From positions 1 to 64,000 of the forward strand of contig JACMRA010000003.1 of NCBI GenBank assembly GCA_014376695.1: a stretch of DNA of 64,000 nt. Reading direction: 5' to 3'. A program made the position numbers and the translations under genes. This document shows positions 39,970-63,553 of this stretch, in pieces. This DNA comes from Minisyncoccota bacterium (GTDB taxonomy: Bacteria > Patescibacteriota > JACMRA01). The notes beneath the pieces are model-generated. The model made no database searches. It was not told the origin of the DNA and saw nothing but the letters and a program-made list of their open reading frames with translations. Positions within the stretch are counted from its first letter, which is position 1. Each line of letters starts with the position of its first letter.

Positions 39970-40474
39970 ATCCAGTTTATTGAATTATTTTTGGGTGTAT
40001 ATGTCTAAATTATTAATTCAAGATCTCTACAAAGTCAATGAGCCCGGTGTTCAAGAGCAAAGATTTGGGGCCAATACGTTCGAATTGTTTAATTGGAGTT
40101 CTTTGGACTTAACAAGTCTTATTGTTAATATCTCAATTTTTGTTTTTTTATGGAACATTTTTGTGAGTTTTTTTTATATTTCTGATTTTTTTTATTGCTA
40201 TAGAATTGCTGGGGACGACGATTTTGAAGTGGAGAAAACGGGGGTAGATCGACTGTATGGTGCGATAAAGATTTGGTTATCCACTTTACCCTCTATTCTT
40301 TCGATTATTGGCGGATTGTTTTTGAGTCAGAGCCGATTGGCTTTGTTTGGGCTGGCTTTGTTTTTTTATATTTTAAAAATTGTATATGATTTAAGGTCAT
40401 TTGCTAAGATTAGTGTTTATTTTAGTTGGTATACTGATATTTTTGTTAATTTGAGGAAATTACGGTTGAAGTAG
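39944..40474 (+). CDS. Hypothetical membrane protein (likely start 40000, MSKLLIQDLYK)
   Basis: Several predicted TM segments. Confidence 0.55.
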   Translation: MRMVFCFDISSLLNYFWVYMSKLLIQDLYKVNEPGVQEQRFGANTFELFNWSSLDLTSLIVNISIFVFLWNIFVSFFYISDFFYCYRIAGDDDFEVEKTGVDRLYGAIKIWLSTLPSILSIIGGLFLSQSRLALFGLALFFYILKIVYDLRSFAKISVYFSWYTDIFVNLRKLRLK

Positions 40475-40612
40475 TTTAGTAATTATTTTTACCCCCTATA
40501 TATCTTCTTTCTATATATAACTTTATAATAATAATAAGGGATCAATAATTGTACATAACTTGTAGATAACCCTTAATTAAGCCGGCTAGTTTAATGTATT
40601 TAGGCTTGATAA

Positions 40613-40637
40613 AGTTATGAACACCCTGTAAATAACT
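40613..40637. repeat. 25-bp direct repeat copy 1, itself a near-palindrome of two inverted boxes
   Basis: agttatgaacaccctgtaaataact, identical to 40695..40719. Confidence 0.9.
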
Positions 40638-40694
40638 TATTTACAGATTTTTGGAATGTAGATAAGTGGGGATCTTATGTACAAGTTGTGTACA

Positions 40695-40719
40695 AGTTAT
40701 GAACACCCTGTAAATAACT
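40695..40719. repeat. 25-bp direct repeat copy 2
   Basis: agttatgaacaccctgtaaataact. Confidence 0.9.
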
Positions 40720-40832
40720 ATTGAAATGGATATTAATACTGACCGATATTGACTTAAATTTGAGTTATGTACAATTTATGTACAATTTCAAAATTGTAGA
40801 CTATTTACAAATTCAAAAAAATATTAATATAA

Positions 40833-41387
40833 TTGCATCATATGTCTCAATATAAACTACTTAACAAAGAAGATTACATTACAATTCTTGTAAATAAGTT
40901 ATCTGCACTCCGAACCAATAGAGTTACCCCGTCTATTTTGGATAATATCGCTGTGTACATACCGAGTTGGGGTGCTACTTTCAAAATTGTCGAGCTGGCC
41001 ACGATTAATATCCCTATGCCAAACACCCTGTTAATAACTCCTTATGACAGCAAAGTCTCATCAAGCGCTATAGAAAAAGCTATAAGGGAGAGTAATTTGG
41101 GAGTAAATCCTGTTAATGACGGTATTGGGATTAAGCTAAACTTTCCTAGTTTAACAACTGAAGACCGGGAAAAGCGGTGCAAAGTGGCCAAAGAATTAGG
41201 CGAAGAAATCAAAGTAAAGCTTCGCAACAATCGCCGCGATATGATTCAAATTACAAAAAGTAACAAAGACATGATAAAAGACGATGTTGAGCGCTACGAA
41301 AAGAGCTTGCAAATCGAGGTGGATAATATGAATAAAGAAATTGATGAGACGGTCAAACTAAAACAAGTTGAATTAATGGCCATGTAA
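40833..41387 (+). CDS. frr: Ribosome recycling factor
   Basis: LRTNRVTPSILDNIAV...VNPVNDGIGIKLNFPSLTTEDREKRCKVAKELGEEIKVKLRNNRRDMIQ. Confidence 0.9.
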   Translation: MHHMSQYKLLNKEDYITILVNKLSALRTNRVTPSILDNIAVYIPSWGATFKIVELATINIPMPNTLLITPYDSKVSSSAIEKAIRESNLGVNPVNDGIGIKLNFPSLTTEDREKRCKVAKELGEEIKVKLRNNRRDMIQITKSNKDMIKDDVERYEKSLQIEVDNMNKEIDETVKLKQVELMAM

Positions 41388-43014: not shown

Positions 43015-43833
43015 ATGACTAATATAGAACCTACAACAGACAATGTCGAAATAGATTACACTCAATCGACCGGCCCAAAATCAGATCCGTCAACTTATGA
43101 CGCGTCTCATATTACCGTATTAGAGGGTCTAGAAGCGGTTCGAAAGAGACCGGGAATGTATATAGGCAATACGGGTAAAGACGGTCTGCACAGATGTCTG
43201 GGCGAAATTTTGGACAATTCGGTTGATGAGTCAATGGAGGGTCATGCGGACAAAATCAAAGTATTTATTAGCAACAAAGATAACTGTGTTGTAGTCTCAG
43301 ATAATGGTCGAGGTATCCCGACCGGAATACATCCTAAGACCGGTAAATCATCGCTCGAAACCATTATGACTGTACTTCACGCCGGCGGTAAATTTGATCA
43401 AGAGAATTATCAATTTGCTGGAGGTTTGCATGGGGTCGGAGCGTCGGTGGTCAACGCTTTGTCTGCCAAAATGCATGTCTGGGTGCTTAAGAACGGGCAG
43501 ATTAGTCATTTAAGCTTTGCAAAGGGCAAGACAATAGGGGACTTAGAAACCGATACTCGAGAAAATATGCTCAAAAAGTTTCCTATCCTTGAAAACAAAA
43601 CTGTTTGGACAAAAACTGGTACTGTAACTGCTTATTACCCTGACAAAGAAATCTTTGAGACTGTGGAATATGACATCAAAGAGGTTTCACAAAGCCTTAA
43701 GCAGACAGCATATCTCAATCCGGGGCTTAATATCCAATTCGAATACACAGGGACAACCCGTGTCAAAAAAAATATTCTCGAAGAGGCGGTGACTGAAATT
43801 TCTAATACGGATATATTGGGAATATTGAATTAA
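43015..43833 (+). CDS. gyrB: DNA gyrase subunit B, truncated to the GHKL ATPase region
   Basis: LEGLEAVRKRPGMYIGNTGKDGLHRCLGEILDNSVDESMEGHADKI...VVSDNGRGIPTGIHPKTGKSSLETIMTVLHAGGKFD...GGLHGVGASVVNALS; ends at 272 aa. Confidence 0.85.
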   Translation: MTNIEPTTDNVEIDYTQSTGPKSDPSTYDASHITVLEGLEAVRKRPGMYIGNTGKDGLHRCLGEILDNSVDESMEGHADKIKVFISNKDNCVVVSDNGRGIPTGIHPKTGKSSLETIMTVLHAGGKFDQENYQFAGGLHGVGASVVNALSAKMHVWVLKNGQISHLSFAKGKTIGDLETDTRENMLKKFPILENKTVWTKTGTVTAYYPDKEIFETVEYDIKEVSQSLKQTAYLNPGLNIQFEYTGTTRVKKNILEEAVTEISNTDILGILN

Positions 43834-62407: not shown

Positions 62408-63553
62408 TTATTCTCCTGATTCATCAATATCGGGCATATCGTCTTCGGGGTTGTCTGAGGGTTGAGTATCCCCAGATTCCAAGGCCAGTTTACCGGAGCG
62501 TATTTTTTCTTTGAATTCGGCGATGATAGCATCCCTTGCTTGATCCAAAACGGCTGGATTAGCATAAAAGTATTTTTTGGATTGTTCACGTCCAACTCCA
62601 AGTTTAACCGACTCTTGACCAGGAAGATTTAGACTGTAAGTGTTACCAGATTTGCTAATTATATCGAAATTGACACCGATATCGATAATCTCTCCGGCGA
62701 TAGATATTACACCAGGTTCGTCGAACATAAGTTCTACAATTGCAGTTTTAAATGGAGCTGCGAGCTTGTTTTTGACTAGCTTTACCTTGACTTGGATACC
62801 GAGATCTTCGGTTCCTGATTTGATCATTCCGATTTTTCGGACGTCGAATCGCTGAGATGCATAGAATTTGAGAGCTTGTCCGCCAGTTGTTGTCTCTGGA
62901 CTACCAAACATTACCCCAATCTTGAGTCGGATTTGGTTAATGAAGATTACGACGGTGTTGGATTTGGAAATAACTCCAGTAAGCTTTCGAAGGGCTTGGG
63001 ACATCAATCTGGCTTGTACACCCATAGAAGCGTCTCCCATATTGCCCTCGATTTCGGATTTTGGGACTAAAGCTGCAACTGAATCGATAACCACAACGTC
63101 AAAGGCTGAGGATCGAACCAGGCTGTCTACTATTTCTAGGGCTTGTTCGCCGTTATCTGGTTGGGCTACATATAACTCGTTGAGATTAACACCTAATTTG
63201 GCGGCCCATGTTGGGTCAAAAGCATGTTCGGCGTCGATCAAAGCTGCGGCACCACCGTTTTTCTGGGCTTGGGCTATTGTCGAAAGGGCGAGGGTAGTTT
63301 TTCCACTGGATTCTGGGCCGAATATCTCGACAATACGTCCGACTGGTAGTCCGCAAACTCCGGTTGCTATATCTATGGCCAGAGATCCTGTTGATATAAC
63401 CGGTGTGTCTGAGATGACTTCATTCATCTTCATAATAGCACCGTCTCCGTAGGTATCTTTGATTTGGGAAATGATCATTGCGATCATCTTTTTTTTCTCT
63501 TCTTGGTTTGTTGTTGTTTGGTTCACTGTTTTGGTAGAGTCTTTTTTGGCCAT
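62408..63553 (-). CDS. recA: Recombinase RecA
   Basis: [49 protein letters not shown]...[22 protein letters not shown]...[30 protein letters not shown]. Confidence 0.97.

Follow-up and report, generated by a model that had tools for sequence, protein, structure and literature searches.

Few protein-DNA pairs are as conserved in bacteria as DnaA and its box. A basal unwinding system built around this pair, in which tandem boxes, a GC-cluster spacer and a run of DnaA-trios stand side by side, was described in B. subtilis and is predicted for 85% of a set of 2070 bacterial origins (PMC8287927; PMC6669920), the published spacer between box and trios peaking at 10-13 bp and three trios being the minimum (PMC8287927). 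On the protein side, helix 5 of DnaA domain IV makes base contacts through E. coli residues 432-435 and 438-439 (PMC5043019), the helix starting at residue 434 reads the 3' part TnCACA of the box and Arg399 reads TTA (PMC5742627); our literature search yielded no crystal-structure table that assigns residues to bases of the DnaA box position by position. Box and protein can vary between lineages: epsilonproteobacterial origins have a shifted box consensus that was tentatively tied to helix 5 changes in DnaA domain IV (PMC5043019). For the origins of CPR/Patescibacteria, our literature search found little beyond Peribacteria, whose reported origin has short repeats and DnaA-box-like sequences, was not evident from gene predictions and was placed by whole-genome skew (PMC4736985).

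The candidate origin considered here lies in the window (the whole 64,000-nt stretch of DNA that was analysed), in a gap of 367 bp (40475-40841) between a small membrane-protein ORF ending at 40474 and frr starting at 40842, and it was characterized from its sequence, the ORFs and shuffles. Like the oriC unwinding region of B. subtilis (PMC6669920, PMC8287927), it has tandem boxes, a GC-cluster spacer and three or more trios that follow one another in the same order on the strand, and its 12-nt spacer falls inside the published 10-13 peak. Unlike the B. subtilis origin, it is not beside dnaA/dnaN, its boxes read TTATN(T/A)ACA instead of TTATNCACA and its trios are AAT, whereas those of B. subtilis are mostly GAT. 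It shares a shifted lineage consensus with epsilonproteobacterial origins, but there the C at position 6 is retained within the core TTCAC and the boxes flank dnaA, whereas here it is position 6 itself that changes (PMC5043019). With the Peribacteria origin it has in common a small-genome CPR host, short repeats, DnaA-box-like sequences and a location that gene predictions do not make evident, although that origin, unlike this one, was placed by skew over the whole genome (PMC4736985). Judged from its sequence, the locus is very probably an oriC of a known type, with DnaA boxes and a trio module, that stands in an unusual place, its variant box code going together with an altered recognition helix of DnaA.

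The box array and the adjoining trio module

An earlier note on this DNA had proposed an origin here from 11 exact TTATNNACA 9-mers, six on the plus and five on the minus strand, and all of them were found again within 235 bp (40550-40784). In 5000 shuffled versions of the gap (40475-40841) with dinucleotides preserved, the mean was 0.32 matches and the maximum 3. At the left end of the array, two minus-strand DnaA-like boxes, TTATGTACA (40550-40558) and TTATCTACA (40561-40569), form a tandem with an 11-bp period, the former being proximal to the trios. Further to the right come a head-to-head unit, AAGTTATGAACACCCTGTAAATAACT (40612-40637, with boxes at 40615 on the plus and 40627 on the minus strand), the boxes TTATTTACA (40637-40645, plus) and TTATCTACA (40657-40665, minus), and then three plus-strand boxes (40675-40705) that again follow an 11-bp period (40675/40686/40697) and read TTATGTACA, TTGTGTACA (a near-match) and TTATGAACA. 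A second, identical copy of AAGTTATGAACACCCTGTAAATAACT (40694-40719, boxes at 40697 on the plus and 40709 on the minus strand) starts 82 bp after the first; the earlier note had correctly seen two identical units, which turned out to be 26 bp rather than 25 bp long. The same 11-bp period returns in the plus-strand tandem pair TTATGTACA-AT-TTATGTACA (40765-40784, boxes at 40765 and 40776), which is the inverted counterpart of the left pair, the two pairs lying in inverted 35-nt arms that are 83% complementary. The near-match CTATTTACA (40801-40809, plus) follows and, like the other near-match at 40686 and the related sequence TTATTAACA inside frr (41029), it is present as the earlier note had indicated; frr contains one more single TTATNNACA site, TTATTTACA at 40889. 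An Rfam search of the gap region returned nothing.

Position 6 is T in nine and A in two of the 11 array boxes, and C in none, while the remaining seven positions (TTAT and ACA) are identical in all 11. These boxes thus fall outside the canonical DnaA-box consensus TTWTNCACA; since box consensus varies by lineage and since the DnaA of this genome differs as well, this mismatch only lowers membership of the canonical consensus.

The gap was then compared with the rest of the assembly (955,781 bp in 16 contigs, 78% complete by markers). The TTATNWACA pattern is not in excess overall (164 occurrences, against 168 for a reversed-pattern control), and its sole cluster in the 955,781 bp is the gap, which is also the densest cluster, as expected of a DnaA-dependent oriC, with its 11 variant-consensus boxes in 235 bp. 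Similar 9-mer clusters at many loci, which the earlier note had named as evidence that would count against an origin, were found nowhere else in the assembly, and neither was a second array able to serve as origin; with an assembly that is 78% complete, a better cluster could lie in the missing part. This assembly lacks canonical tandem DnaA boxes, which do occur in each of the five family relatives. Separately, we observed that GTGTTAAAAA motifs recur in a gap close to the end of contig C12 (72960-73100, L133).

The interval given by the earlier note (40550-40830) left out a key element directly to its left. Read leftward from 40569 on the minus strand, the sequence is TTATCTACA-AG-TTATGTACA-ATTATTGATCCC-TTATTATTATTA, where ATTATTGATCCC (40538-40549, minus) is the 12-nt spacer between box and trios, which contains a GC cluster and ends in CCC, and where TTATTATTATTA (40526-40537, minus) is a DnaA-trio-like run, corresponding to four 3'-AAT-5' trios on the plus strand. 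When trios are defined as 3'-NAN-5' (PMC8287927), there are at least three of them with a central A within 16 bp of a box, TTATTATTATTA being 12 nt from the box at 40550-40558, and this left module has the predicted box / GC cluster / DnaA-trio layout of a Bacillus-type basal unwinding system. The fourfold TTA repeat is found once when either strand of the 73-kb contig is counted, and the pattern TTATNNACA-N10-16-(YTA)x3 has a single site in the assembly, which is this one. Across our phylum sample, the box-plus-trio pattern occurs in 38 of 192 genomes, elsewhere by chance, and a control matches too, so that the pattern carries weight here through being combined with the array.

By AT content alone, an AT-rich element adjoins the boxes on both sides. 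The left flank (40480-40537, about 78-80% AT) is the predicted DNA unwinding element because it adjoins the trio run. The earlier note had pointed to an AT-rich stretch after the array: this right flank (40771-40850) does reach 82-85% AT in part and is a second candidate unwinding side as well as the frr promoter region, but the left flank, with its trio run, is the likelier of the two to open.

Related arrays and the DnaA recognition helix

The comparison with related genomes that the earlier note had suggested revealed similar box-plus-trio arrays in the family, located at recA. None of the five family relatives has a box array upstream of frr, so that conservation of the array at frr was rejected. 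In three of the five (G002, G003 and G004), box arrays with trio-like runs, which are candidate origins, lie between a minus-strand gene and recA (G002, L126 9583-9892; G003, L137 about 1150-1500; G004, L140 upstream of recA); for the other two, G001 and G005, no origin was located. The module is TTATCCACA-14 nt-TTACTACTACTACTC in G002 and TTATGCACA-14 nt-CTACTACTACCACTA in G003, whose array has two halves that face each other, with a dozen boxes in all and mostly 11-bp periods; G004 has a degenerate array with the looser module TTTTGCACA-CCCC-TTATTACTATTA. These arrays resemble the one described here in their 11-bp period and in their box-plus-trio module, and they differ from it in their place and in their boxes, which keep the position-6 C (TTATNCACA, TTTTGCACA). 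Upstream of recA (62408-63553) in the window genome, no boxes were found, and we infer that the origin is at recA in the relatives and at frr here.

In G002, cumulative GC skew is flat at first and begins a steep rise within 2 kb of the array, which gives a sharp minimum, and the array of G004 is within a skew trough. In G003, it keeps falling through the array, with no minimum there; such a steady fall through a dense box array with trios (contig C15, L155-L157) is unexpected for an origin, and a misassembly, an inversion or an inactive array are possible causes. Some 10 kb from its recA array, that genome has another small group of canonical boxes (L127 17694-17729; C15:26693-26728), possibly a secondary DnaA site.

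In the genome studied here, dnaA is located on another contig, C14, with no dnaN in the 3.5 kb around it. This agrees with the proposal of the earlier note that the origin would be uncoupled from dnaA, and the better box cluster beside dnaA that would have spoken against it did not appear, as no dense box cluster was found on C14. The encoded protein is a TIGR00362 equivalog (408 bits, cut-off 344) with domains I, III and IV (Pfam DnaA_N, Bac_DnaA and Bac_DnaA_C). Its ATPase domain is ordinary (206.6 bits, against 202-220 in relatives), and its DNA-binding domain IV has the lowest score in the family (62.9 bits, against 73-88 in relatives). The recognition helix reads GGRTHPTVLH, with the signature THPT, whereas the signature is [DN]H[TS]T, i.e. 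DHTT, NHTT, DHST or NHST, in the 24 further DnaAs from the phylum that could be read by the pattern used (a few more were unreadable), and the DnaAs of G002, G003 and G004 keep it. The canonical base-reading set R399/D433/H434/T435 (E. coli numbering) is thus incomplete: R and H are kept, D433 is replaced by T and T435 by P, and this DnaA is alone among 25 in being changed at both the 433 and 435 equivalents. Matching box variants to domain IV residues, a check proposed by the earlier note, was thus positive. On the DNA side, TTAT and ACA are unchanged, as is Arg399 in the protein, and the position-6 C is replaced by T/A; the residue changes in DnaA would account for this change of the box.

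Alternatively, the gap may be a true origin whose boxes simply drifted to A/T at a weakly constrained position, the changes in DnaA being unrelated. Such drift would suit an AT-rich contig (37.5% GC) and the scattered TTATNNACA sites outside the array, in which position 6 is likewise mostly T or A (19 of 23), but it fits less well with seven other positions that stayed exact in 11 boxes when not a single C was left at position 6, with the tandem boxes of relatives, which usually have C at this position despite their lower GC (31-33%), and with a DnaA that is the only one of 25 to have changed at both equivalents in its base-reading helix (PMC5043019). We consider drift rather unlikely. That DnaA and its box changed together in this lineage is the reading that we favour with some confidence, and we lean slightly towards a joint switch of specificity in which the 433/435 equivalents changed, all the origin boxes lost their position-6 C and the origin sits at frr, not at recA.

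Other candidates for a changed box were also considered and rejected. The tandem TTATGTACA pairs of G032 and G142 are nearly isolated, and so is the TTATTTACA pair of G022; the signature in the DnaA of G142 is the ordinary DHTT, and G032 gave no match to DnaA domain IV.

Skew, neighbouring genes and predicted origin activity

On contig C12, which holds the array, the cumulative GC skew is lowest at 18.5 kb; it then climbs slightly up to 40 kb and more steeply just beyond. Using a model of gene-wise third-position (GC3) skew with the coding strand as covariate, we detected a minus-to-plus step of the origin type on the contig that was matched by none of 500 gene-order shuffles. As to the GC-skew check called for by the earlier note, an origin-type sign change is therefore there, but its best change point, on the skew of this contig, is at 14-28 kb, 13-27 kb left of the array, and not at 40.6 kb. 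Placing the step at 40 kb is 9.8 log-likelihood-ratio units worse than the best placement and about 13 better than the worst one, which is in effect no step. The strand switch that had been described at the array is weak as well, because gene orientation is mixed at 22.9-40.5 kb. Local inversions could have displaced the skew switch, and this displacement is the weakest point of the oriC reading.

On the right, frr (40842-41387, plus) encodes the ribosome recycling factor (Pfam RRF, 1.2e-42). It is preceded by a promoter-like TTTACA-18-TATAAT at 40804-40833 (11/12 match), whose first hexamer overlaps the near-box CTATTTACA; since the promoter-like site and the array thus overlap at the right end of the latter, DnaA may act on frr as well. 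Further along, a gyrB-like ORF (43015-43833, 272 aa) covers the N-terminal ATPase part only (profile positions 1-210 of 639), in agreement with the gyrB fragment mentioned by the earlier note, and it appears to be a truncated copy or fragment; a polyprenyl synthetase gene is found 11 bp after it.

With such a promoter-like site at its edge, the array could bind DnaA without being an origin, either as a datA/DARS-like site for titration or nucleotide exchange, or as a DnaA-controlled frr promoter region. The displaced skew minimum, together with the single tandem box pairs that relatives also have away from their main array, would be consistent with this, yet the box-spacer-trio module, present at no other place in the assembly, suits an unwinding site, no alternative origin array was found in the assembly, and the size and symmetry of the array go beyond what a promoter needs, which makes this explanation improbable. 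We consider it very improbable that the boxes are operators for a DNA-binding protein that has nothing to do with DnaA. The near-palindromic 26-bp units, as for a dimeric repressor, and the missing canonical C would fit this, but the canonical arrays of the relatives have the same 11-bp tandem period and the same TTAT/ACA frame, the trio module adjoins the boxes and no repressor gene was recognised beside them.

Altogether, the unique array, the box-plus-trio module, the similar arrays of relatives and the substitutions in DnaA support the candidate origin of the earlier note, and we hold it to be highly likely that the gap 40475-40841 is a chromosomal oriC uncoupled from dnaA. At this putative origin, DnaA would occupy the TTATN(T/A)ACA boxes of the array, and a DnaA filament would extend from the left tandem pair (40550-40569) over the CCC spacer onto the trio run (40526-40537), so that the AT-rich left flank would open and the helicase would be loaded there, while the two 26-bp units, together with the inverted pair on the right, may help the complex to assemble or to loop. 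The altered recognition helix (T for D433 and P for T435) would have led to boxes that lack the usual position-6 C. DnaA binding, duplex opening and origin activity at the gap are predictions drawn from its sequence.

If DnaA and its boxes did switch specificity together, this genome would carry a naturally re-coded initiator-origin pair beside relatives with the ancestral code, which would show how an essential initiator changes its code and would offer a direct residue-to-base test. The gap also provides a mapped candidate origin, with its predicted opening module, in a group of small uncultured bacteria on whose origins we found little in the literature.
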